This document shows positions 4,790 to 25,954 of a stretch of 36,918 nt of DNA, in pieces; position 1 is the stretch's first letter, and each line of letters opens with the position of its first letter. The stretch spans positions 1 through 36,918 of IMG/VR virus record IMGVR_UViG_3300036772_000222; one strand, written 5' to 3'. This DNA comes from a virus. Below the pieces are notes generated by a model that ran no database searches, was not told the DNA's origin, and saw only the letters and a program-made list of their open reading frames with translations. The position numbers and the translations under genes are program-made.

Positions 4790-4832
4790 AGTATGGGGAC
4801 ATGGACAGTCAACAGACAGATGAAGAGGTTCA
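4790..4832 (-). promoter_or_regulatory. Predicted activator-dependent late promoter upstream of gp46 (PP-like)
   Basis: On the minus strand, the dyad TGAACCTCTTCA (4821-4832) is followed after exactly 25 bp by a -10-like box, CATACT (4790-4795). The same dyad and spacing occur in front of gene I, the lysis cassette and the C-like gene. The preceding GCTGAAC and following TCTGT are also shared with the other two late copies. There is no consensus -35, as expected for a promoter needing a Mor/C-type activator. The predicted start is about 4783. Confidence 0.72.
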
Positions 4833-4839
4833 GCAGGGT

Positions 4840-5493
4840 TTATGCTATGGGCTTACCGGTCGGTTTGCCGTCATTGCCGTTCGGGTGCTCATGGTCTGTC
4901 AGAGAAACAGTTCCAGCTTTGACATCGCCGTCAGTCTGGTAGCTGCCGCCACTTTGTTTGACGTTACCTTCAAAGGCGGCACCGCTGCCCCCTTTAATCG
5001 CCAGACCGCCGTTACCGCTGATTTGCCCCTGAGCGATAACCTGCGCACTGGCGGTCAGCTCCGGGGTGGTGTATGCAGCCTGCGTTTTCGCACTGACCAG
5101 ATATTTATCACAGTTCACATGATATTCCGTGCATTCCACCTCGACAATCTTACCGCGCTTAAGAACGATATGCGCACCTTCGTCGGTGTAGAGCGCGACT
5201 TCGCCGGGTTTGAGGGAGGCCAGTCGGTATGCCCCGTGCTCGGTGGCAATGATAATACCGTGGGAAGAGTGGCCACCCAGGGGCAGGATAATCCCCATCG
5301 TGCCCGCCAGCGGAACGGAAGTAAATCCGTAATGCTGAAACAGCTCCGCATCCTGCACCAGCTCCCCCAGCAACCCTTTAGCCTGTACCGTCTGTACCCG
5401 GGCGCTGCTGTCCACGGTGCCAATCACCGCCCTGAAGGCTTTTCGGATACCGTTTAATGCCTGGTTAATACGCCGGTTAACATCATTCCACAT
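4840..5493 (-). CDS. Baseplate spike protein, Mu gp45
   Basis: The 217-aa protein matches the Mu gp45 family, equivalent to P2 gpV: a trimeric central spike that pierces the outer membrane. The N-terminal part contains the OB-like domain, including TSVPLAGTMGIILPLGGHSSHG. The C-terminal half carries short beta-helix-type segments (SAQVIAQGQISGNGG and following) and a late SLTDHEHPNGN segment whose HxH pattern recalls the metal-binding tip of such spikes. It overlaps the hub gene by 11 bp. The promoter for gp46 lies in the 56 bp downstream. Confidence 0.9.
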   Translation of the reverse strand: MWNDVNRRINQALNGIRKAFRAVIGTVDSSARVQTVQAKGLLGELVQDAELFQHYGFTSVPLAGTMGIILPLGGHSSHGIIIATEHGAYRLASLKPGEVALYTDEGAHIVLKRGKIVEVECTEYHVNCDKYLVSAKTQAAYTTPELTASAQVIAQGQISGNGGLAIKGGSGAAFEGNVKQSGGSYQTDGDVKAGTVSLTDHEHPNGNDGKPTGKPIA

Positions 5494-6721
5494 TGCTGTT
5501 CTCCACGGGCACGATGGTCAGTGCATTATTCTTATGACGCCGGTGTTGCCCCTTCTCTTTAGGGTAAGCGTCAGGTATCCAGATACCGTCTTCTTTAAAG
5601 CGCAGCGTGGTCGTCTGGCCTGTCGGACGACCACCGTTAAACGAGCGCCCCATCAGGAAAAATACCTCATCGATGCCATGCAGTGCGCTCTTGATATGCA
5701 CCCGCTGCCCGGGCTGCCAGAGCACACCGTCCGGCGTCCGGTGGCCCCGAACTTCAACGACAATATCCAGCCCGGTGAGCCGCGCATCTGCCATCGCTTT
5801 ACGGGTTTTGTACTGAAGGTGCTGCTGGCTGTTAACATCACCTGCCACCAGAATTTGCGGCCGGTAGTACGGCACGGAAGGGTCACGAACGGTGTAATGC
5901 CAGTCATGATGACCGGTCTGCGCTGTGTCGGTGTCATCACCGGCAGGAGCGTCGGACTGCTCGCCATCGACAGGAGGCGCGGGTGATTCTGGTGATACAT
6001 CCGTGGGCGTACTGACATCCACCACGGCCAGATTATCACCGTGGTGAGCGTGCCCCTGTGCCAGCATGGACAACTCAGAAAAGCAGCCGTTAATGCTGCG
6101 GGTATCGGACAGCGACAACACGTTATTACCCGTACCCTGAGCATTCAGGGTCAGTGTGGCCACCGGTGGGCGGGAGTAATCAGGCCCACCAATCACCAGC
6201 GTCCCATCCGGATCGAACCAGGGCCACAATCCCCGACCGGCCGCTGTTTTCACCAGTGAATCCCAGGCGCGTTCTCCTGGTTCAAGGTGTGTTTTGTCAT
6301 CGCGGGTCACGCCTTCGGCCTGAATTCTGATACGGGTAAATCCGAACGGCCGGACTATCGAGGCGATGGCCTGGTCAAGCCCGAGCTGACTTGCGCTAAA
6401 AATCGGTGCGGCACAATCGACCAGCACACCGGCACCGTCACGCCCACTCAGGGTCAGTATCAGCCCATGGCGGGACGCGTCACGCTGGACTCTGTCCACC
6501 CGCCCGGATAACACCGTCTGGGTGCCCACGCGAACCTGAACCGTGGCTCCCCGTACCGCGTCGGCCGGAAACACGGCTTCAGGCAATCCAAGCGTCAGTT
6601 GCCAGGCGTCGGCGGGGATCAGAAAGTCAGAATCTATCCGGTAACTTTTCCAGTCACTGTGCTGTGAACCCGCCAGCAGCAGGGTGATTTTCTCCCGGGT
6701 TACATTATCTGACGTAGGCAT
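5483..6721 (-). CDS. Baseplate hub protein, Mu gp44 (gpP)
   Basis: The 412-aa protein is of the Mu gpP/gp44 family, structurally related to T4 gp27 and P2 gpD hub proteins. It begins with a beta-rich domain (KITLLLAGSQHSDWKSYRID) and contains VRVGTQTVLSGRVDRVQRD and LVVGWP-type hub motifs further on, then a Pro/Asp-rich linker around residues 225-260 and a C-terminal domain. The hub trimer connects the tail tube to the gp45 spike. It overlaps gpN by 17 bp and gp45 by 11 bp. Confidence 0.9.
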   Translation of the reverse strand: MPTSDNVTREKITLLLAGSQHSDWKSYRIDSDFLIPADAWQLTLGLPEAVFPADAVRGATVQVRVGTQTVLSGRVDRVQRDASRHGLILTLSGRDGAGVLVDCAAPIFSASQLGLDQAIASIVRPFGFTRIRIQAEGVTRDDKTHLEPGERAWDSLVKTAAGRGLWPWFDPDGTLVIGGPDYSRPPVATLTLNAQGTGNNVLSLSDTRSINGCFSELSMLAQGHAHHGDNLAVVDVSTPTDVSPESPAPPVDGEQSDAPAGDDTDTAQTGHHDWHYTVRDPSVPYYRPQILVAGDVNSQQHLQYKTRKAMADARLTGLDIVVEVRGHRTPDGVLWQPGQRVHIKSALHGIDEVFFLMGRSFNGGRPTGQTTTLRFKEDGIWIPDAYPKEKGQHRRHKNNALTIVPVENSNVE

Positions 6722-8108
6722 TGAGCAGGTCTCCGGGCATCAGGGCGTTGGGGTTGCGGATTTGCGGATTAAGGCGCAACAACTCAGCGGCACGGGTGTA
6801 GTCCTGATACCACAGGTGCGCCAGCAGGTGCAGGTTCGTCTCACCCGGCACCTCACGGCGGGTCAGTACCGGCCGATGGGACATTACCGATATGGCCATG
6901 CGCTGGACATTGAGCGCCACGCTCTTGAGTTGTGCCACCACCGGCTGCCACAGCACACCGATGGCGCTGCTGTCGGTGCTGACCGTCTGCATAAAGGGGG
7001 TGTAGTTATCACGGGTTAACGTAATGGCCTGCTGAATGACGGTTCTCACATCTCCGGTGATACGCTCGATATCTGCCGGTGACAGTGTGACCATCAGGGT
7101 TTTATTGCTGAAGATTGCCACTGCCATACTGACGCATTCATTGACAGCGAGCACCTGGTGCAGGCTCTCCAGCTCGGCCATATCCTCCACGGTCGCATTG
7201 TGAGGAAGGGGAACATGAGCAGGCGTATCGCCTTTTACCAGCGCGGCAGGCAGTCGGGGTAACGTGTTGAGCAGTGACACTGATTCTCCCCAGGCAGAGA
7301 GCAGCACCGGTGTGCTGATCACCTCACTGGTGATGTTCCCGCTGCTTTGTCCTGTCAGTGCAGACGGTGACGGGCCTGACGGGGTGAACGTTATCTGAAC
7401 GGATGGGGAAGACGAACGCGACTGGGGCGGATCGATAAGCTGCCATAGTGGACTGGTGCGCATATCCAGAACCGCCAGCAGGTCGTTCACATAACGACGC
7501 GGCATCGCGAGATAATCGGTGCCGTCACTGACCAGGGCATCGACTTCTGATCGCATGATCGTCATGGTATTAAGCATACCGGACAGCACGGTTTTACCTT
7601 TGACGAGCTGTTTTTTCACCCGGCTCACGGGCTCCATTGCCGACTCAAAAAGCGTCCTGGCATTATCGGTGAGCGATGAGAGAGAATCCAGGATGCCGTC
7701 GCCCAGTTGCTCGGGGTACATTCCACTGTCCAGGGCCGTGCCAAGTCCGGTTTCCAGAAAGACCAGCTCAAGTGTGCAACTGTCGGGATTTTCGGCATCG
7801 TGGGCAATCTGGTATTCGATGAGCTGGACGCGTGGCACAGAGCCATAGACCGGGTGAATGAGTTCCCCGGCCCCCGGGGTATCCAGTGCGCGGATAAACG
7901 CATCGCGGCGTACATCATAATCGTCACCCCAGAAAAGGGCAGAAAGCCGGAAATTACGCGGCTTACGACCAAGGTCGTTAATATCACCACCGTCCAGGAA
8001 GGGGTATTCATGGTCGTCATGGTCGCGCCCGACACTTTCCTGGGTACGCAGAACGTCAAAGCGGACGCCCCTGAAGGTGGCATCCTGAAGATTATCCAGC
8101 CAGCTCAT
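6705..8108 (-). CDS. DNA circularisation N-terminal domain protein (Mu gp43, gpN)
   Basis: The 467-aa protein starts MSWLDNLQDATFRGVRFDVL, the hallmark of the DNA_circ_N domain, which occupies about residues 1-95. The C-terminal 50 residues, with TNLHLLAHLWYQDYTRAAEL and ALMPGDLLNAYVR, look like a LysM/tail-hub X-type module. In Mu this is a tail component despite the historical DNA circulation name. The start shares one base (8108) with the stop of the tape-measure gene (8108-8110). Confidence 0.9.
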   Translation of the reverse strand: MSWLDNLQDATFRGVRFDVLRTQESVGRDHDDHEYPFLDGGDINDLGRKPRNFRLSALFWGDDYDVRRDAFIRALDTPGAGELIHPVYGSVPRVQLIEYQIAHDAENPDSCTLELVFLETGLGTALDSGMYPEQLGDGILDSLSSLTDNARTLFESAMEPVSRVKKQLVKGKTVLSGMLNTMTIMRSEVDALVSDGTDYLAMPRRYVNDLLAVLDMRTSPLWQLIDPPQSRSSSPSVQITFTPSGPSPSALTGQSSGNITSEVISTPVLLSAWGESVSLLNTLPRLPAALVKGDTPAHVPLPHNATVEDMAELESLHQVLAVNECVSMAVAIFSNKTLMVTLSPADIERITGDVRTVIQQAITLTRDNYTPFMQTVSTDSSAIGVLWQPVVAQLKSVALNVQRMAISVMSHRPVLTRREVPGETNLHLLAHLWYQDYTRAAELLRLNPQIRNPNALMPGDLLNAYVR

Positions 8109-10363
8109 CAGGAACCTCCGCCCGTGCCCCGGCTGCCATCCATGACGTTATGGCGATTGACACTCTCAGCGACCACCTGACCATCAAGCATGACCTGGGT
8201 GGTGATGTTCAGCGGGCCAAACGGTGACGGGGCCTGGCCGTTCAGGTAAGACGGTACGCCGGTTTTGGCTGGGTTGTGGGCGTCGAGTACGTCTTTCGGG
8301 TTCAGAATATCGCTGGTTGCTGGAGTTAAGAGCCATCGGCGCAACATACCGGGCAAATCGATATCAAATAAAGGTTTATTGATTTCCGGGTGCTGTTGTT
8401 GCATGTATTCCGGATAACTCATTCCCGAATCACGCGCTTTGTTAATTGCATCGAGCGTCTCTTGCCGCGCTTTATTCATGTCGTCTTTTAACGCCATCAT
8501 GACGTTGGCCACCGACGCCGCAGCACCCACTGGCCCGGGTAAACTCGACGCTTTATCAAGCAAATCACTGCCCTTATCCTGACCTTGCCCCTGCCAGTTC
8601 GTGACGTAGACAGGCAACGCACCCGCTGACCCGACACCTGACATACCGGGTAAATCAGACAGCCCGGGTATTTTCCCTACGCCTCCGGGGAGTTTGCCGC
8701 CTTTAACAAACTGTGTGAGGAACGCTATGCCGGAGAAGGCGGCGGCTGCAGCGGTCATCGTTTCGATGGCTATTTTTGCCCCAGCGGCAGCGGTCGCCAG
8801 TCCCGGGAACTCGACGGCAAGATCTGCCGCTTTCTGTGCGGCATCACCTAACTCATTTGTCAGTCCTTTCACTGCGGCATTTTCGGAAAAGAACTTTTCA
8901 TTATCCAGCTGTTCCGCTTTATAAGCAGGTTCGTTTTTTATGACGTCATAGGAGGCGTCTGTCGCCCCTGCTGAGTTTTGAGTGCCCTTTATTTGGTTAG
9001 CGATATAATCCTTTTGCATTATCGTCGTGGTTAATGCGGCGTTAGCCTGCGCATCCGGAATATATTGACCAAGAATGGCTGATGCTCTTAATTGAAGGGC
9101 ATTCTGATAATTTTGTTCTTTATCTGTACCTTTATATTTTTTTACGTCAGCTTTAATTTTTTTATATTCGTTATCATTATCTACCAGTGAGCGCATGGCA
9201 TTCATAAAGGCATCGGGGGCCCGAATGCCTTTTTCCTGCTGGGTCACCATGTATTGAGAATAAGTTTCTGTTTTACCGTTAGCCTCACGAAAACGGGTAT
9301 TCTTCATATTATTGATGGTGTCAGCACTGTTAATTTTACTGAGTAAATTGCTGTAATTGGTTGCTGCCTGGCTATTATCCCCCGCCGTCATTGAGTTAGC
9401 CTGAAGGTTTGCAAACAATAAATCCGTATCAGCAAGGCCGCCAAGACCTTGCTTAGCGGCTAAAGACAGTACGCCGGGCAATGACTTTGCCATATCAGCG
9501 ATTTCCATACCGCCCAGTTCCCCGGAGCGCTGGAGCTTATCCAGAAACTTAGGGATATCTTCTACCTTGATTTTAAATACGTTCATTGCCGTACTGACCG
9601 TTCTTGCAATATCTCCCGCATCAGCCCCTGTGGCAGTTGAAGACTTCATAATGGCGGGCAGCACCTTCATCACCGACTGCGGAGCAATGCCGCCTTTACC
9701 GTACAGAACCCCCGTTGCCGCCATCGCCTGGTCTGGTGTCCCACCGCCATAACGCACGGAATCCTGGATGCCGGTGTTAATTTCATCCTTCATTTTGATA
9801 CGTTCTTGCGGAGATTTGTCGTTAAAGCCGGTGTTCACCAGCCGGGCCAGCGACTGACTGTAACCCGCGTAGGTCTTGACAGGTTGAGCCACGACCGCCG
9901 CACCCGCCACAACACCGCCAACAACCGCCGCCGTTCTGCCCCAGGCATTACGCGCACCGCTCAGGCGGCTTGCGCTCTGTAGCCCCTGCATTTCCTGTTT
10001 GACAGCGGCAACCTGTGTGCGCATGGTGCTGTAAGCACGGGCCTGCTCGCGGGCTGACATCACACCACTGCGGGCAAGACGGTTATAACTGGCGATGGAG
10101 CGATCCATCTCACGTTGCAGGCTCTGTTCAGATTTGACACCCAGCGTCTCACGGGCGCGGGCATTGCGGCGGAACTCTTCTGTCTGGCTACGCGACGCCT
10201 TGGCGGCTTCAGCTGATGCCGCTTTCTCGGTATTCCCCAGACGGGCCGACGCTTTCTCCGCATCATTAAAGCTTTTAATCGAGTCTTTGAGGGCTTTTGC
10301 AATCTGTTTTGATGCGTCGTCGCGGGCAGAGAGCTCCAGCGAGACCTTCATATTTCTGGCCAT
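8108..10363 (-). CDS. Tail tape measure protein (Mu gp42)
   Basis: At 751 aa this is the largest protein in the window, and it lies directly after the tail chaperone pair, as tape measures do. The first 130 residues form a charged coiled-coil. A membrane-like Ala/Gly/Val segment follows around residues 135-160, then the TP901-type core with GVLYGKGG and SLPGVLSLAAKQGLG. A second hydrophobic stretch lies near residues 525-550. The C-terminus is short, polar and Gly-rich. The protein sets tail length and is ejected during infection. Residues about 320-480 (9000-9400) are clearly more AT-rich and lysine-rich than the rest, which suggests a mosaic central segment. Confidence 0.92.
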   Translation of the reverse strand: MARNMKVSLELSARDDASKQIAKALKDSIKSFNDAEKASARLGNTEKAASAEAAKASRSQTEEFRRNARARETLGVKSEQSLQREMDRSIASYNRLARSGVMSAREQARAYSTMRTQVAAVKQEMQGLQSASRLSGARNAWGRTAAVVGGVVAGAAVVAQPVKTYAGYSQSLARLVNTGFNDKSPQERIKMKDEINTGIQDSVRYGGGTPDQAMAATGVLYGKGGIAPQSVMKVLPAIMKSSTATGADAGDIARTVSTAMNVFKIKVEDIPKFLDKLQRSGELGGMEIADMAKSLPGVLSLAAKQGLGGLADTDLLFANLQANSMTAGDNSQAATNYSNLLSKINSADTINNMKNTRFREANGKTETYSQYMVTQQEKGIRAPDAFMNAMRSLVDNDNEYKKIKADVKKYKGTDKEQNYQNALQLRASAILGQYIPDAQANAALTTTIMQKDYIANQIKGTQNSAGATDASYDVIKNEPAYKAEQLDNEKFFSENAAVKGLTNELGDAAQKAADLAVEFPGLATAAAGAKIAIETMTAAAAAFSGIAFLTQFVKGGKLPGGVGKIPGLSDLPGMSGVGSAGALPVYVTNWQGQGQDKGSDLLDKASSLPGPVGAAASVANVMMALKDDMNKARQETLDAINKARDSGMSYPEYMQQQHPEINKPLFDIDLPGMLRRWLLTPATSDILNPKDVLDAHNPAKTGVPSYLNGQAPSPFGPLNITTQVMLDGQVVAESVNRHNVMDGSRGTGGGS

Positions 10364-10374
10364 TCAGGGCTCCA

Positions 10375-11266: not shown

Positions 11267-11283
11267 GGTGTCGGCTCTCCTTA

Positions 11284-13038: not shown

Positions 13039-13049
13039 ATTTCACCTCG

Positions 13050-14312: not shown

Positions 14313-14324
14313 GGTGGCCTCCGG

Positions 14325-15630: not shown

Positions 15631-16026
15631 TTATTCGAAATAGACCCAGACGCCGTCGCTTTCGATCCCGGCAACTTTTCCGGCGTAGGGCCGGGCTTTG
15701 TTATCATCGGTTTTGGCAACCGTAATGCTGTCCTGCACAAAACAGTCCTGACCGACACGCGCCTGCGTGATGGGGTCGGTCGTGCTGTTGACCATCAGGA
15801 AGAACTTGTCACGCCGCACCAGTACCTGAGCACCACCGTCAGCGCCTGCAGAGTTATCCACCCAGCCTGCGGAAATACCGATTGTCAGAAGGGCTGCCGT
15901 CGCCGTGGCGGGAACGGCAAATCCCGTCGCGTTGAGGGCGACTATATGGCCACCAAATATCTCTGTTTTCGCCGCCACCGGCGTCGGATTCAGCAGGCCA
16001 TCGCGAAAGGGGGTATTACGATCCAT
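15631..16026 (-). CDS. Small capsid (cement/DUF2190-like) protein
   Basis: The protein is about 131 aa from the start MDRNTPFRDGLLNPTP, which has SD AGGAG just upstream. An ATG 14 codons earlier lies within gene I and lacks that support. It is rich in Gly, Ala, Val and Thr and predicted to be all beta (GHIVALNATGFAVPATATAA, then a C-terminal AGKVAGIESDGVWVYFE). The composition and position between the protease/scaffold and the major capsid gene resemble DUF2190-type decoration proteins. In Mu this is the gp33 position. Capsid stabilisation is inferred. Confidence 0.75.
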   Translation of the reverse strand: MDRNTPFRDGLLNPTPVAAKTEIFGGHIVALNATGFAVPATATAALLTIGISAGWVDNSAGADGGAQVLVRRDKFFLMVNSTTDPITQARVGQDCFVQDSITVAKTDDNKARPYAGKVAGIESDGVWVYFE

Positions 16027-17137
16027 GGTTTTCTCCTGCGTATTTCGCCACATCAGCCGGGTCAACACCCATCATGGAGCAGATGCCCACGTCAACATCG
16101 TCAGGCATATTATCGTCAGGCGTCGTGACAGAACGGGCTCCTGCAGGCGGCTTCCCGCCAGACTGGAGACTGTTCAGTGCGGCAATCGCCGGGGCTTTAT
16201 CGAGATGGGCCCTGAGTGCGGCTATGTCGCTGCGACCTAAATCTTTAGCCCAGTCTTCCAGTGCGGGGATGAGGCGGCCATCCGAGAGTGCCGCGACAAC
16301 CAGCGTGTCCACTTCGGCGTGTTGTTGTGTGCCCTGAAGCGCCACAATCTGAGCCTGTGTCTGGATCAACGCCTCCACTGGGACATATTTTGCAGGGTCG
16401 TAGGCTTTCGCACTCAGTTCAGCAATCCGGGTATCTTTGTCGGTGAGCAGCGTCAGCAGACCCTGGCTGGTCGCGGCAACGCCCTGGCCTCCGGAGACGG
16501 CATCGATGACTTTTTGTAGTTCAGCCTTAATCTCTTCCGCCGTCGAGGTGACCGGCAGGTTGAGCGTCCAGCGTAGTGAGCTGAGCAGGTCAGCCAGCAT
16601 TTCTTCATCCAAGGGGGTATCCTCCAGAACAGGTTGAGAAAGGCCCGCGATAAGGGATGCAGCAGCGACAGCTACCTCACCCAAATCATCGAGAGCCGGT
16701 AAATTGGTGAGCGCGACATTAATCAGCCCCAGCACCTCGCCGGTATTCGGGTTATAAGGAAACAGCGGCGAGACATAGCGGTACTCGCGGGCTTCAATCA
16801 TCGCCTGTGCGGCGGCCGTCCATTCCACATCGACCGCATACAACCCGTCGCCCTCACGCCATTCCAGGGTATGGAACCAGGCTGACGCCGGGGCAGGCTG
16901 TCCGTTAGATTTCGCCCGCAGTACCTGATGTTCATAGTCAAAGTGCAGATCGGTTTTACGGGTGCTGATGGTGGTAATGAGGTTTTGTGCCAGTGCAGCG
17001 TTCATCACCCAGGCTGCACATTCAGCGGGGCGGCTGTCACTGGAACGAAACTCACCGGCCGGGAAGATTTTCACTTCCCGGGATGCGCCGGTGGTGGCGG
17101 TGATTTCAAGTGTCAGTGCAGCAATTTGTGTTTTCAT
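16016..17137 (-). CDS. Head maturation protease and scaffold (Mu gp32, gpI; includes gpZ-like part)
   Basis: The 373-aa protein is the Mu I protein: KIFPAGEFRSSDSRP near residue 24, LHFDYEHQ around 64, and SPLFPYNPNTGEVLG around 143 are family blocks. The C-terminal half, from about residue 185, is helical and scaffold-like. In Mu an internal start yields the Z scaffold, and MLADLLSSLRWTLN near residue 180 could serve here. No Shine-Dalgarno precedes the first ATG, and the predicted transcription start falls on its A, suggesting a leaderless message. It overlaps the downstream capsid gene by 11 bp. Confidence 0.92.
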   Translation of the reverse strand: MKTQIAALTLEITATTGASREVKIFPAGEFRSSDSRPAECAAWVMNAALAQNLITTISTRKTDLHFDYEHQVLRAKSNGQPAPASAWFHTLEWREGDGLYAVDVEWTAAAQAMIEAREYRYVSPLFPYNPNTGEVLGLINVALTNLPALDDLGEVAVAAASLIAGLSQPVLEDTPLDEEMLADLLSSLRWTLNLPVTSTAEEIKAELQKVIDAVSGGQGVAATSQGLLTLLTDKDTRIAELSAKAYDPAKYVPVEALIQTQAQIVALQGTQQHAEVDTLVVAALSDGRLIPALEDWAKDLGRSDIAALRAHLDKAPAIAALNSLQSGGKPPAGARSVTTPDDNMPDDVDVGICSMMGVDPADVAKYAGENHGS

Positions 17138-17143
17138 GACCGC

Positions 17144-17186
17144 AGCGTAACGCCACGGGAATACCCGTTACAGATGAGGGGGTTCA
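17144..17186 (-). promoter_or_regulatory. Predicted activator-dependent late promoter upstream of gene I (PI-like)
   Basis: On the minus strand, the dyad TGAACCCCCTCA (17175-17186) is followed after exactly 25 bp by the -10-like box TACGCT (17144-17149). The flanks GCTGAAC and TCATCTGT match the lysis and gp46 copies. The DNA between operator and -10 contains the hairpin ACGGG-TATT-CCCGT. The predicted start is about 17137. The whole gap between gene I and the G gene (17138-17355, 218 bp) contains this promoter and a terminator but no gene. Confidence 0.72.
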
Positions 17187-17347: not shown

Positions 17348-17355
17348 AACCATCG

Positions 17356-17895: not shown

Positions 17896-17896
17896 G

Positions 17897-19069
17897 TTAT
17901 GCCGCCTGTCGAGTTGTCGTGCGCAGCAGCTGCACCAGTTCGCCATCCTTCACGATGGCCACAATCTGCTCACCGTCCCGATGGATAAGATAACGCACAC
18001 CCTGAGCCGTGACCGTCACCCGCTCCGGTGACTCAATAGCCTGCTGAGCCAGCAGATAATCCGCTGCTGTCACACCGCTTGTCGCCAGCGTCTGCATCAC
18101 CGGTGCGGAAACCGTGACGGTCTGCTGTGCTATGGGCTCCGGGGTGGTGACCGGTGCCAGCACAGCCACCGGCCAGCGCTGTGCCGGTACAGGTTGCGCC
18201 GTAATGGCCGTGGCCTGCGAGAAACCGCGCAAAAAATCCGGCCCGGTCAGTGAGCCGGTGACATACTGGCGGGCCGCCGTCGTCGGGTATTTGTCGAGGT
18301 CTGGTTGCCAGGCCACTTCGCCCGGGTTAATGCCAAAGCCCGGATCGGGTAAAAACAGCGTACCGGTTTTGGGATCGCGAAAACCGGTTGCCGGACGGGT
18401 CTGGCCGGGAATGCCGTATTCCTGATTGATGGTTTCCAGCCATCCCTCACTGCTTTCAAGGCCAATAGCGTGTCCGTCGAGCTGAACCTGGTTGAGTGCG
18501 CGAACGCGGCACCGGCAGCGGTAACCATTGGGCGGAAAGATAACCGCCCATATCGGATCATCCCAGCGAAAGACGCGCCCGTTCAGTGCGGCATGTGCCG
18601 GACGGGTGCGATTGTCCATGACCGCCACATACTCCCAGTACGGTCGGGTATCCACGTTCTCACGCAGTGACTTCCAGCGCCCGGCCATATAAGACGACTG
18701 CATATTCGTCCGGAAAATCGTCTCCAGCCGACGTGGAAGCAACTGCTTACCCTGCAATTCGCCGGTCTGCGGCGAGGCGACCAGCGCGTTCCCCAGCCAG
18801 CCTTTTTGCGCCAGCACCGGCAGCAGGCGACGGGCAAAATCAGTCTCTGTCCCGCCGTCGTGCAGCATCGCTGTCTGAGCCGCGCGGATGTCCTGCAGGA
18901 TATCGAGCTTCAGAACCCCGGCGACCGTAAAACTGCGGGCGTGAGCCTGGGCTTCCACATCGTGCCAGTTAAAGCCCATGACGTAGCCCTTGCGCTCAAA
19001 GTACGCAATGGCTTCCGCAGGCGGCAGCCCGATAGCATACGACAGGTCTACTGCTTCAGGTGTTGCCAT
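17897..19069 (-). CDS. Minor head/morphogenesis protein (Mu gp30, gpF)
   Basis: The 390-aa protein belongs to the SPP1 gp7/Mu F family of minor head proteins. It has the N-terminal YAIGLPPAEAIAYFERKGY, a central RLETIFRTNMQSSYMAGRW, and a RPAHAALNGRVFRWDDPIW block followed by FPPNGYRCRCRVR, which are the defining motifs. The protein associates with the portal and is ejected or acts in DNA packaging. The C-terminal 100 residues are more variable. Its start overlaps the portal stop by 14 bp. Confidence 0.93.
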   Translation of the reverse strand: MATPEAVDLSYAIGLPPAEAIAYFERKGYVMGFNWHDVEAQAHARSFTVAGVLKLDILQDIRAAQTAMLHDGGTETDFARRLLPVLAQKGWLGNALVASPQTGELQGKQLLPRRLETIFRTNMQSSYMAGRWKSLRENVDTRPYWEYVAVMDNRTRPAHAALNGRVFRWDDPIWAVIFPPNGYRCRCRVRALNQVQLDGHAIGLESSEGWLETINQEYGIPGQTRPATGFRDPKTGTLFLPDPGFGINPGEVAWQPDLDKYPTTAARQYVTGSLTGPDFLRGFSQATAITAQPVPAQRWPVAVLAPVTTPEPIAQQTVTVSAPVMQTLATSGVTAADYLLAQQAIESPERVTVTAQGVRYLIHRDGEQIVAIVKDGELVQLLRTTTRQAA

Positions 19070-20642
19070 TCAGACGCCCCCAAACGTCGGCCACGAACAG
19101 GGCCTGCCCGACCAGACCACGCAGCGCATTATCATCCAGAAGAGGGAAACTGGCGGCCACTATCTCCGTTGCCTCGTCAGGGGTTTTACCCTGAGAAAGC
19201 GCCGCCACCATCGGTGCCATCAGCTTTTCCATCGCGGTACTGACGGTATCGACGGACGGGGCGGTATCATCCAGGCTTAACTGCGCAGGATCGTCATCAT
19301 GGCCTGCGTCAGTTTGTTGACTGAGGGCGGCGATCCGCTGTATGGCCAGCGTACTGAGTGCCTGTGTGGCGGTGACGCCAGTCTGTTTTATGGGCTTCAG
19401 CACGGCGTCACCCTTTGCGGCCACCGGAATACCCGACTTCTCGTGCAGCCAGGCGACCGGGATCGTGTCCATGCCCAGTTCGTTCACCATCACCGACACT
19501 GCGGTCGTCAGTGGAGTCAAATCCACCACCTCCCGGGTATCAAACATCAGACGCGGCAGGCGACGGCGACTGACATTGCTGTAGCCGTTGAGGGTCAGCA
19601 GCATAAAAATAAGCTGGCGGAAGGCTCCCTCGATCTGGCGGGCATCGGCTGTCATCAGGTCATGGCGGACTTCGTTATGCACATTCCCCAGGGCATTCGT
19701 CGAGGTTTTCCCGTCAGCCTGAGTGGTCAGTGTGCCACCGAGTATTACCTTGGATTCCGTCAGCTCCGCCCAGCGGATCATCTGCGTGAAGGGATCACTG
19801 CCGCCACTGGCGGCATTCTCAAACTTGATGTCCGTTCCTTGCGGGAGAACGGCAACCGCTTCATGACCGAGGCGTACCAGCATCGCCAGAATGCGGTCGC
19901 GTTCTTCGTCAGTGGTGCCAGCGGCATAGGTGGCAATACGGGCAGGCAGACCGTAAATTTCCAGGAACTCTGCCCAGTCACGCAGGGCATAGTTTTTAAA
20001 CAGATAGGGCCAGACCAGTACGCGGTAAATCCCACTGGTGGCCACGAAGCCGGAGCGGGCATTGTGACGATGTACCAGCCAGCCGAACGGCCAGAGCTCG
20101 CTGCCCTCCATCGAACCGTCATTGAGCCGGAGCTGATCGCCTTTTTCCGGCAGTGTGGAGAACCAGTAATGCGGTCGAAGATGGAGCGACCGGGGCAACC
20201 AGATTTTTTCACTGAGCTCCCAGTCGATTTCCTGGCAACTGAAACCGTGGCCAACGGCGTCCATCAGATTGAGGATGACATCCTCCATTTCCGGGATACT
20301 GCTGAACCAGTCCTGCACAGCGGCGGTCATATTCTTTTCGTCTGCCGTGGCATTCAGGGGCGGCACTATCGACCAGGACAGCGTCAGTAGCGCATTTTTG
20401 CGCTTGTTCATCTCGGCAAAGATATGGCCGTCGCGCTCCTGCATATCCGCGAATAAATGCGCCTGGGCGCTGAGGTCACCCTGTTCCGCCGCCTGAAGAA
20501 TACGGGGCATCTTACGAATATTGAGCCCGAGTGACGGGTGTTCAGGGTATAAACGCTGAATATCAGCCTGTGCGACAGTCTGCGGGGTTTTGAGGGCATC
20601 CCGCACCAGCGGGTTACCGTGAATATCAACAAGAGTGGCCAT
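19056..20642 (-). CDS. Portal protein (Mu gp29, DUF935)
   Basis: The 528-aa protein is a DUF935 portal. Recognised blocks are KRKNALLTLSWSIVPP, DWELSEKIWLPRSLHLRPHY, FLEIYGLPARIATY and a C-terminal helical arm. Portals form the dodecameric DNA channel at one capsid vertex and bind the terminase. The length is near the 512 aa of Mu gp29. The gene follows the large terminase by 6 bp, and the order TerL, portal, F, G is that of Mu. The ATG at 20642 is followed by MATLVDIHGNPL, a typical family start. Confidence 0.95.
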   Translation of the reverse strand: MATLVDIHGNPLVRDALKTPQTVAQADIQRLYPEHPSLGLNIRKMPRILQAAEQGDLSAQAHLFADMQERDGHIFAEMNKRKNALLTLSWSIVPPLNATADEKNMTAAVQDWFSSIPEMEDVILNLMDAVGHGFSCQEIDWELSEKIWLPRSLHLRPHYWFSTLPEKGDQLRLNDGSMEGSELWPFGWLVHRHNARSGFVATSGIYRVLVWPYLFKNYALRDWAEFLEIYGLPARIATYAAGTTDEERDRILAMLVRLGHEAVAVLPQGTDIKFENAASGGSDPFTQMIRWAELTESKVILGGTLTTQADGKTSTNALGNVHNEVRHDLMTADARQIEGAFRQLIFMLLTLNGYSNVSRRRLPRLMFDTREVVDLTPLTTAVSVMVNELGMDTIPVAWLHEKSGIPVAAKGDAVLKPIKQTGVTATQALSTLAIQRIAALSQQTDAGHDDDPAQLSLDDTAPSVDTVSTAMEKLMAPMVAALSQGKTPDEATEIVAASFPLLDDNALRGLVGQALFVADVWGRLNGNT

Positions 20643-20648
20643 AGTTCC

Positions 20649-22283
20649 TCACCATGCACCCGACCCGAACCGGCTGTCTTCATTGTGCCGGGGGACGGTA
20701 TAACACTGAAACGGGGCGCTGCGCGACACGGCAAGCGACCAGAGCATATGTAAACAATCCGGGCCGTCATCGTGATCGGCTTTCGGAAAATGACGCAGCT
20801 GATCAATCAACGTCTGCTGGCTGTTATGCAGCAGGATCAGATGGTTCTTCATGTGGGGCTGCAGGGACTCAATACGCAGCAGTTTGTCGGTCGAAGGGGT
20901 GACAGCCACAGCAGGCACCGGGACGCCCAGTATGGCCGAGCGTTTCACCAGTTCGGTGCGTAAAAACTCCTGGAACTGCACCGACTCAATAGCCCAGGCC
21001 AGGCAGCCATATTGTCGCTGAAACTCAATAATATCCGAGATGATAAGGTCGGGAACGCGCTTGCGGATGGCGGCTTCCACCACGTTCAGTACGCCGGTAA
21101 AGCGGTTAAATCCGCCCACCAGAATAGCGGACGGGTCGCGCCGTTTGCCGAATTTCCCGAGACTCGGGTCACAGGCACCGTAGAAAATCCACTCGGCCAG
21201 CCGGTTAACCCAGAAGTGAATACACCCGGTAAAGATAGCGCCATCACCACTGACGGGGTCGTTCTGGTATTCGCTGTCGAAGGTGTCGTGCCCGTCACGT
21301 ACACGGATTTGCATCAACGCCAGCAACGGTCGGGCCGCCCAGGAGACGACGGAACCTTCGAGCATCGCAGCCTCATTCTCAAGATAAAACTGCGCCGCCG
21401 CGTCAGGCTCTTTATTGACGATGTACGCTTCCCACGTATCCCACAGCGACATGTGCAGTGGCCAGCGCAGGACGGATTTAAACCGGTGTGTGCGCCACAT
21501 CGGATTGTTGAGGGTTCGGGACAGCACCGAGTCATAATGCAGGATGGTGCCGATATAGATAATGTCGAGCTTGCCTCCGGCTTCCCCCAGCGGCATGACG
21601 GTTTTTTTCAACCATCTGTCGAGTTTGTCACGTTGCTCAGGGTTGGCCACGTTCTCGTCGTTCTCGATATCATCCAGGATAACCAGGTCAGGACGATACG
21701 CACCGTGACGCAGACCACGCAGTTTTTTCCCGCTCCCGGCTACGGTCACCTTGATGTTATTACGGGTCACGATGGTGCCCATCTGCCAGGTCCGACCCTG
21801 CCCGCAAATATCGGGATAATCGTTCTTTAAACGGGGGTTAAACTCCAGTTCCGCCTTGATGGCTTCCAGCATCGGATACGACTGCTCGATGGAATCCATA
21901 ATGATGACAGGGTAATGCTTGAGCGCCCGGATGATGCACCACAGCGTAAACAGCTGGCTCACCAGCGTGGACTTGGCTTCACCACGCGGAGCGGCTATCG
22001 CATCATTCTGGCTCTGGGGGCTGGCTACTATCTCTGGCAGACGGGCAAACAGGCAGTGATGCAACTCACTACGCGAGGCGTGACGGATATAGTGCGGAAA
22101 ATAGGTGGCGACAAAATAGTCATAGCCGTCTTTTACATGTGCCACCTGGTCACGCCGGGCCTGCGCGGCCGTTTCGTCCACCGCAAATCCCAGACACTCG
22201 GCCTCAATGGTCTGGCGCAGACTGGCGATATACCACTGCAAGGATGCCCGAAATTCTTTACGGGAGAATTTTTCACCGCTCAC
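20649..22283 (-). CDS. Terminase large subunit (Mu gp28)
   Basis: This is the DNA-packaging motor: an N-terminal ATPase with Walker A-like APRGEAKST (about residues 98-106) and Walker B LVILDDIEND (about 200), and a C-terminal RNase H-like nuclease starting near YGACDPSLG. The GTG at 22283 is preferred as start because AAAGGA sits 6-7 bases upstream, giving about 544 aa against 551 in Mu gp28. An ATG at 22379 would overlap the methyltransferase gene by about 70 bp. The Walker A is a variant (RGEAKST), as in other Mu-type terminases. Confidence 0.93.
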   Translation of the reverse strand: MSGEKFSRKEFRASLQWYIASLRQTIEAECLGFAVDETAAQARRDQVAHVKDGYDYFVATYFPHYIRHASRSELHHCLFARLPEIVASPQSQNDAIAAPRGEAKSTLVSQLFTLWCIIRALKHYPVIIMDSIEQSYPMLEAIKAELEFNPRLKNDYPDICGQGRTWQMGTIVTRNNIKVTVAGSGKKLRGLRHGAYRPDLVILDDIENDENVANPEQRDKLDRWLKKTVMPLGEAGGKLDIIYIGTILHYDSVLSRTLNNPMWRTHRFKSVLRWPLHMSLWDTWEAYIVNKEPDAAAQFYLENEAAMLEGSVVSWAARPLLALMQIRVRDGHDTFDSEYQNDPVSGDGAIFTGCIHFWVNRLAEWIFYGACDPSLGKFGKRRDPSAILVGGFNRFTGVLNVVEAAIRKRVPDLIISDIIEFQRQYGCLAWAIESVQFQEFLRTELVKRSAILGVPVPAVAVTPSTDKLLRIESLQPHMKNHLILLHNSQQTLIDQLRHFPKADHDDGPDCLHMLWSLAVSRSAPFQCYTVPRHNEDSRFGSGAW

Positions 22284-22308
22284 AACATATCCTTTCTGGT
22301 CAATCAGG

Positions 22309-23043
22309 TTAATGTCCTGTCGCCAGTGCCCGTTCGATACGGGCGCAGGCGATATCAAAATACACGGGTGACTGCTCAATCCCGGTGAAACTGCCGCCGT
22401 TCTTCAACACCGGCAACGCGGTTGTTCCGCTCCCCATAAAGGGATCGAGTACCCGACAGGGTGTCGGCAACGGCTTGATCAACATATCCATCACCTCCAC
22501 AGGTTTGCCTGTCATGTGCAGCTTCAGTGCAGGGTTGACCCGTTGTGTGATGAGACCCGGCCACGGGCCACCGTGAGCGCACTTAGGCAGCGGGCCAATG
22601 CTGCCCCAGATAACGTATTCGCACTGATGCCGGAAATAACCGGTATGAGGTGCACGACTGGACGCGGTTTTATCCCAGGGAATGATGCCCCGCCACAACA
22701 CCCCACCGCCCTGAAGACTGTCTGTGGTGGCGGGTAACTGTCGCCAGTCGGAAAAAATCATGACGTAGCCACCCGGTACGACGAGCCGCGCGGCCTGTCC
22801 AATCCACAGCATCGACCAGTACGCCCACGAACGGGCATCCCGGTTATCCCCGCCAAACTCCGCATACGGGCCGGTCACGGCATATTTATTCCCGGGGGCC
22901 TGCATTCTGGCGGAAGCATGTAACCCGCCACTGCTGTAAGGCGGGTCGGTGATAAGGGCATCAAACCCCGGTGACAACGTGGGTAAAATCTCCAGTGCAT
23001 CACCGCAATACAAGGTTGCCTGACCAATCTGCTGCTTTTGCAT
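22309..23043 (-). CDS. Site-specific DNA methyltransferase (DPPY, beta class)
   Basis: The 244-aa protein has the catalytic DPPY motif at residues 33-36 and the S-adenosylmethionine-binding DPFMGSGT at 200-207. The order catalytic motif, then target recognition, then SAM motif marks the beta class, and DPPY points to N6-adenine, though N4-cytosine cannot be ruled out. No restriction endonuclease lies nearby, so it is an orphan phage enzyme, probably protecting phage DNA from host restriction, as Mom does by another chemistry in Mu. It sits between the small and large terminase genes, which suggests late expression just before packaging. The target site is unknown. Confidence 0.92.
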   Translation of the reverse strand: MQKQQIGQATLYCGDALEILPTLSPGFDALITDPPYSSGGLHASARMQAPGNKYAVTGPYAEFGGDNRDARSWAYWSMLWIGQAARLVVPGGYVMIFSDWRQLPATTDSLQGGGVLWRGIIPWDKTASSRAPHTGYFRHQCEYVIWGSIGPLPKCAHGGPWPGLITQRVNPALKLHMTGKPVEVMDMLIKPLPTPCRVLDPFMGSGTTALPVLKNGGSFTGIEQSPVYFDIACARIERALATGH

Positions 23044-23058
23044 GTCACCCCCGGACGG

Positions 23059-23256
23059 TTATTTTTCGTGCGCCAGTGAAAACTCCAGAAACGCTATCAA
23101 CACCCCGACGACGGCTTCTCCTCTGGTCGATGAAAACAGCTCGACCACCTGTTGACGTGCTGATTCAGTCACCCGTTGTTCCTCTGGCGTCGCTGAGACT
23201 ACCGCCCCCCGGAGCTGGTAAAGCAGCGCCTGCATTTCCTGTTTATCCGACAACAT
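23059..23256 (-). CDS. Small hypothetical protein between terminase and methyltransferase
   Basis: The protein is about 65 aa from the ATG at 23256 (MLSDKQEMQALLYQLRG), which has a GAGAGG ribosome-binding site. An in-frame ATG 13 codons upstream lies inside the preceding gene. It is helical with a C-terminal hydrophobic stretch (AVVGVLIAFLEFSLA) that could be amphipathic or a weak membrane segment. No family is recognised. It overlaps the small terminase gene by 14 bp, so coupled translation is likely. Confidence 0.7.
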   Translation of the reverse strand: MLSDKQEMQALLYQLRGAVVSATPEEQRVTESARQQVVELFSSTRGEAVVGVLIAFLEFSLAHEK

Positions 23257-23743
23257 GTTCAAGCCTCTCACTGAAGGCTTCCAGCACCTCAACAAACACC
23301 GTGTTGTGTTGCGGGAAGCGTTGATTAATAAAATCGCCCAGCTCTTTGATAACCGTCAGTGCGGTAGCTAGTTCGCTGGTCTGTGGCAGTATTTTTTTGT
23401 TGGCGGAGGTAGCTTTGCTGAGTGCATCGCTGAGACTGGCCAGTAAATCCACCCGTTTCTCCGCTGACAGGCTGGTGTCGGTATTGAGCTTTTCCGTGGC
23501 TGTCTGAAACTGAATAATCAGGCTTATCAGCATCTCGCGCCCGGCTGCCTCCAGACTGCCGCCCGCCATCACCTGAGCGGCGCGGACACGATCCCAGTCA
23601 TCGCCTGCATCCTGTGCCTCTTTTTTCCACCGACGGGCTGTACCAAACGACACGGCCATCATGGCCGCCACCACCTCAAGGGACATCTGGTTAAACACAT
23701 AGGTGCGCCGTATCTTGTCGCGCATCTCTGGCGGGTACGCCAT
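23243..23743 (-). CDS. Terminase small subunit (Mu gp27, DUF1804)
   Basis: The 166-aa protein begins MAYPPEMRDKIRRTYVFNQM, followed by a helix-turn-helix (LEVVAAMMAVSFGTARRWKK, about residues 22-41), the DUF1804 signature. In Mu-like phages it recognises phage DNA for packaging. The C-terminal half is helical and probably makes the oligomer. About 64 bp separate it from the Rz1 gene upstream. Confidence 0.9.
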   Translation of the reverse strand: MAYPPEMRDKIRRTYVFNQMSLEVVAAMMAVSFGTARRWKKEAQDAGDDWDRVRAAQVMAGGSLEAAGREMLISLIIQFQTATEKLNTDTSLSAEKRVDLLASLSDALSKATSANKKILPQTSELATALTVIKELGDFINQRFPQHNTVFVEVLEAFSERLEHVVG

Positions 23744-23807
23744 ATTTCACTCCTTTAAACCGCGTTTAACCCCGGCCTGAATACTGTTTAAATTTGCCGC
23801 TATCGCC

Positions 23808-24140
23808 TTACGGGTTCTCACCATCAGGTAACAACCGACATTCAGGTGGTTGTGGCAGCGGATCATTCAGTGCCTCCACGGCCATGCGCGTCTGTTCAAT
23901 CTGACGAATGAGTGCCTTGTCACAGTTACTTTGCCGCAGCACTTCCAGCAGATCGGTGCTCCACAGCAGCGCCTCACCGTAGCTGAGTCTGCCCGGCGTG
24001 GCTCCCGGTAGTGGTGGCAGGCGCGACGCCGTCAGGTTCGCGGGCAGTGGCCGGTAAGGCACTGGCACGGGCGAAGGTGGTAAGTTTCCACACCCGGTCA
24101 GCAGCGCCATCAGGCACAAACTGACTGGCGCACGGCTCAT
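23808..24140 (-). CDS. Outer-membrane spanin lipoprotein (Rz1-like)
   Basis: The protein is about 110 aa from MSRAPVSLCLMALLTGCGNL, a lipoprotein signal with lipobox LTGC at residues 14-17. A Pro-rich stretch (PPSPVPVPYRPLP) follows, typical of Rz1. The start lies inside the Rz gene in another frame, giving the overlapping spanin arrangement. Most Rz1 proteins are shorter; the C-terminal 60 residues here are an extension with two cysteines. Together with Rz it would fuse the inner and outer membranes in the last step of lysis. Confidence 0.8.
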   Translation of the reverse strand: MSRAPVSLCLMALLTGCGNLPPSPVPVPYRPLPANLTASRLPPLPGATPGRLSYGEALLWSTDLLEVLRQSNCDKALIRQIEQTRMAVEALNDPLPQPPECRLLPDGENP

Positions 24141-24393
24141 GAATAATTTTTTCACGGATTTCAATTTTCGTTTTCCCCTGTTGCACATCACCGCGCTGGC
24201 TGCTGACAAGCCCGGTCTGGCTGATCCCCAGCTCGATACGATCCTGCTGTAGTTGACGTTTCAGCGCCTTGCTCAGTCCGTCTCGTTCGGTCGTCAGACG
24301 GGTGACGTCTGCCTTCGCGTCCCCCAGTTCGTGCCAGAGCAACAGCAAAGCCCCACCCAGCACAGCATAGAGAACAAGGATGTATTTGTTCAT
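23974..24393 (-). CDS. Inner-membrane spanin (Rz-like)
   Basis: The protein is about 139 aa from MNKYILVLYAVLGGALLLLW, an N-terminal membrane anchor (residues about 4-20) followed by a periplasmic coiled coil (KADVTRLTTERDGLSKALKR). This is the i-spanin layout. The longer in-frame ATG at 24474 lies inside the lysozyme gene and is rejected. The gene starts 5 bp after the lysozyme stop. Its last 170 bp or so overlap the Rz1 gene in another frame. Confidence 0.8.
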   Translation of the reverse strand: MNKYILVLYAVLGGALLLLWHELGDAKADVTRLTTERDGLSKALKRQLQQDRIELGISQTGLVSSQRGDVQQGKTKIEIREKIIHEPCASQFVPDGAADRVWKLTTFARASALPATAREPDGVAPATTTGSHAGQTQLR

Positions 24394-24398
24394 CCGGC

Positions 24399-24857
24399 TT
24401 ACCCCTGACGAAGAAACAGGTCGCGCTCGGCCGCACGACGTCGGGTGAGGCCTGGCAGCTTCTGCTTGTTCCACTTCGGAAACTCAGCTGCTGCCCCCTC
24501 AACGTCACCGGCGTTGAGCTTGTGCAGCAACGTACTGTCGCCCAGGCCTTCCGCGATATTGTCAGCATCGATATCGCTGCCAACGTTGTAGGCAAAACTC
24601 ACCAGTGCATCGAACTGATTCTGGCTGATAACTACTGTGACGAGCTGCGTCACATCGCGCTCGAATCGCGCCACATCAGCCAGCAAAGCCTGGTCTGCTT
24701 GCGCCTGCGTCCAGCGCAGACCCGGCCTGACCTCCGGGCCGGTATGGCCGTAGCCGATAGTCCAGGGAGCCGCGCCCGTGGCCGGATCAGGGTAGGCGTC
24801 GAGTTTCACACCCTCGAACTGTTTAATCAGTGCCAGACCGTTATTGCTGATTTTCAT
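24399..24857 (-). CDS. Endolysin, T4-type lysozyme (GH24)
   Basis: The 152-aa protein begins MKISNNGLALIKQFEGVKLD. The GH24 triad is visible as Glu15 (FEG), Asp24 and Thr33 in the WTIGYGH block. It hydrolyses the beta-1,4 bond of peptidoglycan between MurNAc and GlcNAc. No signal or SAR anchor is present, so it should depend on the holin for release. Its start overlaps the holin stop by 17 bp. Confidence 0.95.
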   Translation of the reverse strand: MKISNNGLALIKQFEGVKLDAYPDPATGAAPWTIGYGHTGPEVRPGLRWTQAQADQALLADVARFERDVTQLVTVVISQNQFDALVSFAYNVGSDIDADNIAEGLGDSTLLHKLNAGDVEGAAAEFPKWNKQKLPGLTRRRAAERDLFLRQG

Positions 24858-25179
24858 CGTGTTTATCCTCTCCGGTTTTACGGGCTACCATTGCCAGGAT
24901 GGTGTCGCGAATTTTGTCAGCACCGACAAATCCCACCGCAGCCCCTGCAAAGGCGGCACCGTTGCCAGGCAGACCGAAATGTTCGAGTACGCCTGAAAGC
25001 GTGAGTGCAAAAATGCCGCACACACAGCTGCCGGTAATAATGAGTTTTTTCGGTTTACTGTCACGGATACCCATCAGACCGGAAATACCGAGGGCCGCCG
25101 CGCCGGAATAGACTGACGGCAGGTACTCTTTCAGCCATCGGACAGATGCACCCAGCAAATCCGGATCAGCACCGCCCAT
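24841..25179 (-). CDS. Holin (three predicted membrane segments)
   Basis: The protein is about 112 aa from the ATG at 25179 (MGGADPDLLGASVRWLKEYL), chosen because GGAG lies 6-7 bases upstream. Three hydrophobic segments follow (around SGAAALGISGLMG, LIITGSCVCGIFALTLSGV and GAAFAGAAVGFVG), and the C-terminus is short and charged with many Lys, Asp and Glu. This is the class I holin plan. Its place directly before the lysozyme supports the role of making the inner-membrane hole that times lysis. Confidence 0.85.
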   Translation of the reverse strand: MGGADPDLLGASVRWLKEYLPSVYSGAAALGISGLMGIRDSKPKKLIITGSCVCGIFALTLSGVLEHFGLPGNGAAFAGAAVGFVGADKIRDTILAMVARKTGEDKHDENQQ

Positions 25180-25276
25180 GACAGGCTCCAGAGCCGCGCA
25201 GCGGGCAACGGCTACAGTCAGAGCGACAGAGTCGAATTGTGGCCACCAGGACGACAATCATTAAAAAGGTGTTCAT
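25166..25276 (-). CDS. Possible 36-aa membrane mini-ORF at the head of the lysis transcript
   Basis: An ATG at 25276 follows the strong ribosome-binding site AAGGAG at 8 bp. It opens a 36-codon frame beginning MNTFLMIVVLVATIRLC, a hydrophobic segment, followed by a Cys/Arg-rich tail that stops just inside the holin gene (14-bp overlap). It would be the first gene of the transcript from the lysis promoter. It could be a holin regulator, a second small membrane protein, or a leader that couples translation to the holin. I do not recognise a family. Confidence 0.45.
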   Translation of the reverse strand: MNTFLMIVVLVATIRLCRSDCSRCPLRGSGACHGRC

Positions 25277-25277
25277 T

Positions 25278-25305
25278 GAGACCACTCCTTGTATCAGGTG
25301 GTCTC
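25278..25305. repeat. Hairpin next to the ribosome-binding site of the lysis transcript
   Basis: Perfect 8-bp arms GAGACCAC (25278-25285) and GTGGTCTC (25298-25305) with a 12-base loop. On the message the loop and 3' arm abut the AAGGAG site of the mini-ORF. Six bases of the 5' arm lie between the predicted -10 box and the expected start, so only read-through RNA would contain the full stem. Confidence 0.6.
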
Positions 25306-25348
25306 AGAATAAATTCAGGGGAAAAAGACTGACAGATGAAGGGGTTCA
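25306..25348 (-). promoter_or_regulatory. Predicted activator-dependent late promoter of the lysis operon (Plys-like)
   Basis: On the minus strand, the dyad TGAACCCCTTCA (25337-25348) is followed after exactly 25 bp by the -10-like box TATTCT (25306-25311). Flanks GCTGAAC and TCATCTGT are shared with the promoters upstream of gene I and gp46. The predicted start is about 25299, with a 23-base leader to the mini-ORF. The transcript would run through lysis, terminase, portal, F and G genes to the terminator at 17315-17347. Confidence 0.75.
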
Positions 25349-25400
25349 GCAGGGTAACAAAGAGGACGATGTGCCAGACGCAGCATAAAACAAAAGCCCG

Positions 25401-25871
25401 TCAGTTATCAAACAAACTCCCCTGGTGTTGGACAACCGACCCCGCCTGGTGCCGCGCGAGCAACTTCCAGGCGATACGGTCGCTGAAACCATACCGGGGG
25501 CAGAGTTCAGCCATGGCTTCGCGGATGGATGCGCCCCCCTGACAATGGTCAGCCAGTTCAGCGAGAAAGCGGGTATTACGCAGGGTGCGCAGCGCCTGTT
25601 CGCACCGTGGAATATAGAGGGGCGCACCGCCGAGAGTGCGAAACAGCAAACTAACGTCCTCCTCGCTCAGCGCATCACATAACATCCGGTAAATACTGCG
25701 CTCGCTGAGGCTGTCGCGCCCGTTGTGCAGGTACAGCGTGACGCCACCAAAGCGGGCTATAAGCCGGGCGGTGGCCGCAAACCCCAGCACCCGAATAAGC
25801 TCATGAGTCGCATCGGGTAATAAGCGGGAAAGCTGTTGTAATTCATCCTGGCTGATGGAAGGCAGCGTCAT
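25401..25871 (-). CDS. Late transcription activator, Mor/C family (C-like)
   Basis: The protein is about 156 aa from MTLPSISQDELQQLSRLL. The Mor/C family core is visible: an N-terminal dimerisation part with TARLIARFGGVTLYL, a GGAPLYIPRCEQAL segment, then a helix-turn-helix (GGASIREAMAELCPRYGFSDRIAWKLL, near residues 108-135). The start at 25871 is used because a GGGGG element precedes it; a start 7 codons upstream lies in the terminator T-tract. By its position next to the lysis cassette it corresponds to Mu C, which activates late promoters. It is paralogous to the gene at 26661-27089. Confidence 0.9.
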   Translation of the reverse strand: MTLPSISQDELQQLSRLLPDATHELIRVLGFAATARLIARFGGVTLYLHNGRDSLSERSIYRMLCDALSEEDVSLLFRTLGGAPLYIPRCEQALRTLRNTRFLAELADHCQGGASIREAMAELCPRYGFSDRIAWKLLARHQAGSVVQHQGSLFDN

Positions 25872-25880
25872 AAAACCCCC

Positions 25881-25911
25881 AAAAAAAAGCACCCACAGAA
25901 ACGTTGGGTGC
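25881..25911 (-). terminator. Rho-independent terminator in front of the C-like gene
   Basis: On the minus strand, GCACCCA (25911-25905), a 9-base loop and TGGGTGC (25895-25889) are followed by eight T (25888-25881). It would stop transcripts arriving from the early region before the C-like gene. The first arm lies directly after the predicted -10 box of the local promoter, so RNA started there would lack most of it. Confidence 0.82.
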
Positions 25912-25954
25912 AGTGTGTCAGGATTAAAAATCGCTGTCGGTCTGAAGGGGTTCA
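25912..25954 (-). promoter_or_regulatory. Predicted activator-dependent promoter of the C-like gene (Pm-like)
   Basis: On the minus strand, the dyad TGAACCCCTTCA (25943-25954) is followed after exactly 25 bp by the -10-like box CACACT (25912-25917). The dyad core equals that of the lysis promoter, but the flanks differ (CACTGAAC and GACCG instead of GCTGAAC and TCTGT), which may reflect activation by the Mor-like rather than the C-like protein. The predicted start is about 25905. It overlaps the stop of the gene at 25952-26263. Confidence 0.68.

Follow-up and report, generated by a model that had tools for sequence, protein, structure and literature searches.

Which activator turns on which promoter in a Mu-like phage that encodes two Mor/C-family proteins and whose operators do not resemble the one known for Mu C? 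The question is raised by a 36,918-nt stretch of viral DNA (IMGVR_UViG_3300036772_000222, positions 1 to 36,918), here called the window. Read on the minus strand, where the operators also lie, the window has a Mu-like order of genes: transposase, B protein, GemA, two genes of the Mor/C activator family (defined here by Pfam PF08765 and phrog_836), lysis genes, gene I, and baseplate. The Mor-like gene (27089-26661) comes after GemA and one small gene, and the C-like gene (25871-25401) is downstream of two small genes and a Pm-like site. Profile comparison of the window activators with Mu Mor and C gave a probability of 96 and an E value of 1.8e-9. A Foldseek search of the PDB with a single-chain activator model gave no significant match; the solved Mu Mor (1rr7) and C are dimers, and PDB entries for Mu C and Mor are 9l0x/9l0y. 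The genes that matter here are the following.

26661 to 27089, minus strand: Mor-like activator, 142 aa (phrog_836, 5.5e-32; Pfam Mor 22.2 bits, just short of the 24.9 cut-off)
25401 to 25871, minus strand: C-like activator, 156 aa, with Arg117 (Pfam Mor 40.7 bits, cut-off 24.9; phrog_836, 1.7e-32)
16016 to 17137, minus strand: gene I, Mu-like capsid protease (Pfam Mu-like_Pro, 5e-92)
4433 to 4783, minus strand: gp46 baseplate gene (Pfam GP46, 1.5e-16)

The two small genes between Mor and Pm (25952-26751, minus strand) encode proteins with CxxC pairs flanking a hydrophobic stretch. In other two-activator phages the Mor-to-Pm interval is about 320 to 710 bp, contains different genes, and ends at the Pm operator, resembling a variable cargo slot. 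The first open reading frame after Plys (25166-25276, minus strand) is tiny, about 36 codons, hydrophobic, and upstream of the holin gene. Coding sequence at both ends of the window (1-165 and about 36700-36918) does not look phage-derived, and these ends are perhaps host flanks.

The original prediction was that one TGAA-N4-TTCA operator recurs at four promoters, exactly 25 bp from a -10-like box. The spacing to CATACT, TACGCT, TATTCT, and CACACT is indeed exact at all four. The dyad itself is exact at 4821-4832, 25337-25348, and 25943-25954 (three found against 0.55 expected, a number reached in 1 of 100 shuffles), and the site at 17175-17186, which reads TGAGGGGGTTCA on the plus strand and TGAACCCCCTCA on the promoter strand, departs from it by one base. 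With +1 taken as the seventh base after the -10 box, the four predicted promoters are laid out as follows.

25943 to 25954, minus strand: Pm operator, CAC class, cacTGAACCCCTTCAga
25912 to 25917, minus strand: Pm -10 box CACACT, 25-bp spacing; predicted +1 is A at 25905, leader 34 nt
25337 to 25348, minus strand: Plys operator, TGC class, tgcTGAACCCCTTCAtc
25306 to 25311, minus strand: Plys -10 box TATTCT; +1 predicted at 25299 (A), 23-nt leader before the ATG at 25276
17175 to 17186, minus strand: PI operator, TGC class, tgcTGAACCCCCTCAtc
17144 to 17149, minus strand: PI -10 box TACGCT; +1 predicted at 17137, on the A of the gene I start codon
4821 to 4832, minus strand: gp46 promoter operator, TGC class, tgcTGAACCTCTTCAtc
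4790 to 4795, minus strand: gp46 promoter -10 box CATACT; +1 predicted at 4783, on the A of the gp46 start codon

The predicted +1 is thus an A in all four cases, and the centre of the dyad falls at -43.5, the position at which the dyad bound by the Mor dimer is centred on Mu Pm (PMC4287176; PMC4390567). Mu Mor protects about -56 to -36. The dyad would occupy the place of the -35 box. By gene context the sites at Pm, Plys, and PI correspond to their Mu namesakes. The fourth had been equated with Mu PP, an assignment that we dropped, since Mu PP lies inside gene N (27287-27353) and the window site directly precedes gp46.

A minus-strand pattern, CTGAACCYCYTCA, matched four times in the window (4821, 17175, 25337, and 25943) against 0.00 expected from 100 shuffles; it was derived from these same sites, so independent support comes from conservation in relatives. 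That the window holds no further copy, as already noted by eye, was borne out, the four sites scoring 17.0 to 20.2 bits and the next best 10.4. That the dyads are chance occurrences might be argued from the bare pattern, which, with one mismatch allowed, is found in the window about as often as expected (19 against 13.8). However, the same places and the same spacing recur across dozens of diverged relatives, and we dropped this explanation as vanishingly improbable.

Those relatives comprise 96 loci found with the activator profile and another 80 found through gp46. Near-DNA searches for close relatives of the window returned short matches only, and a scan of viral contigs with a single protein returned none, so an alignment was used instead. 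In these relatives the dyad is conserved and keeps its spacing, contrary to the loss or irregular spacing that had been named in advance as a refutation, and both properties can be read directly from the sequences. In most enterobacterial relatives and some others, the lysis genes, gene I, and gp46 are preceded by the operator. Its gap to the -10 box is 25 bp in 91 of 101 distinct classified sites, 26 in nine, and 24 in one, a tidiness favored by taking as the box the best-scoring one within 23 to 27 bp of the operator. Pasteurellaceae phages such as SuMu have tgtGGAA-N4-TTCC-like sites, and SuMu gene I, read by eye, retains the 25 bp to TATTCT. In three loci (L118, L126, and L130), which lie on fragmentary contigs and for that reason yielded no activator, the core of the gp46 promoter operator, TGAAACGTTTCA, is a perfect palindrome.

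Most relatives have one activator and no Pm. In four single-activator phages, Klebsiella ST405-OXA48phi1.1, Pseudomonas VW-6B, SuMu, and Mannheimia 3927AP2, a phrog_836-like activator is encoded next to GemA and operators precede lysis, gene I, and gp46, as in the window; unlike the window, these phages lack Pm and C. The lack of C was noted in the Mannheimia phage paper, where late activation was left open (PMC4553209). The operator is not particular to this phage, as had been supposed, and is general among phages with phrog_836-like activators. The further idea, that a different operator serves the same cascade as in Mu, holds in that the sites look like Mor/C-type activator sites of a sequence unlike Mu's; the cascade itself is confined to two-activator phages.

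The notion of one shared operator has to be revised: the sites fall into two classes, and the split follows the activator. They differ at -52/-51, with CA at window Pm and TG at the three late promoters. Of 12 Pm sequences from two-activator phages, 11 have the CAC flank, and the late sites of these phages have TGC or CGC in all cases; in single-activator phages the flank is mostly CAC. The covariation with the activator is observed directly. Among 88 activators with assigned operators, Arg at residue 117 accompanies G at -51 in 33 and a non-Arg residue accompanies A in 55, without exception; the window's Mor-like protein has Ser where residue 117 aligns. Activators of further gp46 loci provided a fresh test, matched by eye, in which seven non-Arg proteins went with CAC and one Arg protein with a CGC-like flank. 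On the activator tree, residue 117 and base -51 each need three changes. With so few, other linked residues, such as 118, may carry the class difference, and the independent evidence for the rule is thin in number. The mirror position, -36, is mostly C in both classes, which makes the rule asymmetric in a supposedly symmetric site. In a confident structure model, residue 117 is in the first helix of the helix-turn-helix (HTH; 116-127), and the recognition helix (131-150) holds residues common to both activator classes, which fits a shared core with a differing flank.

One phage makes the strongest individual case. The L033 Mor is 94% identical to the L010 Mor over its first 90 residues and thereafter has a C-type DNA-binding end, 58% identical to the L010 C and 42% to the L010 Mor. 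Both L033 activators have Arg117, and the L033 Pm is the sole Pm with TGC, hence G at -51. The match between residue and base, together with this swap, suggests that residue 117 and base -51 distinguish middle from late switches, and most likely Mor drives Pm and C drives the late promoters. In another group, L031 to L047, an Arg117 activator and TGC late operators are present, yet there is no Pm site before the activator gene; a terminator-like repeat and a TATAAT box lie ahead of that gene.

Two other assignments of the activators have to be weighed. C alone might use all four sites, with Pm autoactivated and Mor acting elsewhere or vestigial, and the 12-bp core is in fact identical at window Pm and Plys. 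Yet C has Arg117 in every two-activator phage, whereas base -51 of Pm is A in 11 of the 12 sequences; each of the 12 Mor proteins, even the swapped one of L033, has a residue that suits its Pm, and C could not start its own synthesis. We dropped autoactivation as the main reading and regard this arrangement as very unlikely. Slightly less improbable, though still unlikely, is that all four sites serve Mor and C alike, with no real discrimination, and that order comes only from the timing of synthesis. The shared core and the tolerance of natural variation in the right half-site would suit such a scheme, and it may be right for L033, where both activators have Arg117, but the strict split at -52/-51 matching the activators argues against it elsewhere. 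Division of labor between Mor and C is thus the reading that we carry forward, with binding and activation inferred from these sequence patterns.

Inverted repeats lie across three of the four window start sites; none was found at the window's PI.

25881 to 25911, minus strand: terminator-like repeat GCACCCA-N9-TGGGTGC-T8, left arm at -6 to +1 of Pm
25278 to 25305, minus strand: Plys inverted repeat GAGACCAC / GTGGTCTC, left arm at -6 to +2 (shuffle p 0.002)
4779 to 4805, minus strand: gp46 inverted repeat TCCATGTC / GACATGGA, enclosing the -10 box (shuffle p 0.003)

The repeats can be read from the sequence itself. That at Pm has a shuffle p of 0.21 in the window and a matching layout in other two-activator phages. 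At window Plys the ribosome-site region ahead of the ATG ends within the right arm. In the set at large the Plys repeat starts directly downstream of the -10 box, at -6 to about +3, and ends at the ribosome site or start codon; shuffle p is up to 0.02 in 32 of 47 distinct sequences, and in 39 of 47 the arms pair better with each other than, on average, with arms from other phages. Compensated arm changes are seen in GACGCCATC/GATGGCGTC, GGCACCATC/GATGGTGCC, and GAGACCAC/GTGGTCTC. Most of the other two-activator phages lack the Plys repeat, as does the L031-like group. At gp46, 21 of 28 sites have p<0.05. The right arm there contains the start codon, which is fully paired in the window's read-through fold, and in L002, where gp46 starts with GTG, the left arm is correspondingly GTCCAC. 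By folding only, the gp46 start codon is unpaired at 0.11 in read-through RNA against 0.67 in RNA from +1, and it is freer in the latter in all 28 sequences. The average effect at Plys goes in the same direction and is smaller; in the window Plys fold the start codon is no freer when the left arm is absent.

Since the repeats straddle start sites, mainly read-through RNA should form the hairpin or terminator, which suggests that most of these start sites are built to silence RNA running in from upstream. There is a tested precedent in T4, where early read-through RNA of genes e, soc, and I-TevI forms a hairpin that hides the ribosome site and late RNA, with its start farther downstream, cannot form it (PMC2988022). 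The same layout, with the left arm at or before +1 and the right one at the ribosome site or start codon, occurs at window Plys and gp46. T4 is an unrelated phage with unrelated promoters, and silencing in the window is predicted from sequence; unlike in T4, the start codon itself lies in the gp46 repeat, and the repeat at Pm resembles a terminator. Alternatively, the repeats may be by-products of another protein's binding, DNA melting, or pausing. The gp46 repeat encloses the -10 box, and left arms would exist as DNA only if +1 is as predicted, both of which suit that explanation. Against it stand the compensated arm changes, the coincidence of right arms with ribosome sites or start codons, the T-tailed repeats at Pm, and the T4 precedent, and we consider a by-product origin possible though rather doubtful.

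The predicted starts have a further consequence. The gene I start codon follows the operator end by 37 bp in 14, 38 bp in 29, and 39 bp in one of 47 distinct sites (44 in all), and that of gp46 by 36 to 39 bp. These distances place both start codons at or within two bases of the predicted +1, and the gene I and gp46 mRNAs are accordingly predicted to be leaderless. Single leaderless phage mRNAs are known, among them lambda cI and P2 gene V. In the literature searched, with most subscription papers outside it, we found no description of a leaderless Mu-like late mRNA, of start-straddling repeats in Mu-like phages, or of an operator of the window type.

In Mu, Mor acts at Pm and C at Plys, PI, PP, and Pmom. 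Mu shares with the window homologous Mor/C activators, the dyad centre at -43.5 of Pm (PMC4287176), a -10 box without an evident -35 box, and middle and late promoters in a similar gene order. Its Pm region likewise has a predicted terminator and a start-straddling repeat (p 0.003) laid out as in the window, and its Plys has a start-straddling repeat, GCCATCA/TGATGGC (p 0.001), like that at window Plys. An inverted repeat, CTGCTCA/TGAGCAG, is close to the gene I start at Mu PI (record positions 18022-18060). In contrast, the Mu C operator is TTAT-N6-ATAA, a form present perfectly in Mu Pmom, and its half-sites do not occur in the TGAA-N4-TTCA-like window operators, as originally noted; the fourth promoter is before gp46 in the window and inside N in Mu; and gene I starts at the predicted +1 in the window and has an annotated ribosome site in Mu. 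On the activator tree, the Mor proteins of two-activator phages all cluster together (100/88 with the window's), their C proteins make up a second cluster (88/97), and Mu Mor and Mu C stand apart, together (99/99). AU tests weakly rejected joining Mu Mor to the Mor group and Mu C to the C group (p 0.033 and 0.036). The window-type Mor and C thus most likely arose by a duplication separate from that in Mu, and the two-tier design may have arisen twice, tentatively, given the long branches.

Taken together, the four sites most likely work as Mor/C operators, unlike Mu's in sequence and divided into two classes matched to the two activators. Mor, made from the early operon, would bind the CAC-class site and turn on Pm and thereby C, which would bind the TGC-class sites and turn on the operons of lysis, gene I, and gp46. 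Both proteins would read the shared core with the conserved recognition helix and distinguish the two classes by the bases at -52/-51, with the beginning of the first HTH helix, Arg117 going with G and other residues with A. At every start site but that of PI, a repeat across +1 or the -10 box would turn read-through RNA into a terminator at Pm, or into a hairpin near the ribosome site (Plys) or over the start codon (gp46); promoter-born RNA would lack the left arm, and gene I and gp46 mRNAs would begin at or next to their start codons. We hold this whole reading to be quite probable, with the roles of the start-site repeats and the leaderless starts as its predictions.

The operator would then be valid family-wide for Mor/C activators outside Mu and would suggest, in testable form, how late genes are controlled in Mu-like phages that lack C, and the residue-base pair could explain how two related activators stay apart. 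The repeats point to a possible layer of read-through silencing, not described in the literature searched and visible even in Mu. A wider reading seems to us evenly balanced: that Mu-like phages as a group, Mu included, insulate their middle and late operons by start-straddling repeats, and that their Mor/C activators obey a one-residue, one-base code, rewired by swaps of DNA-binding ends. With such insulation, only promoter-born RNA would be translated, some of it leaderless.
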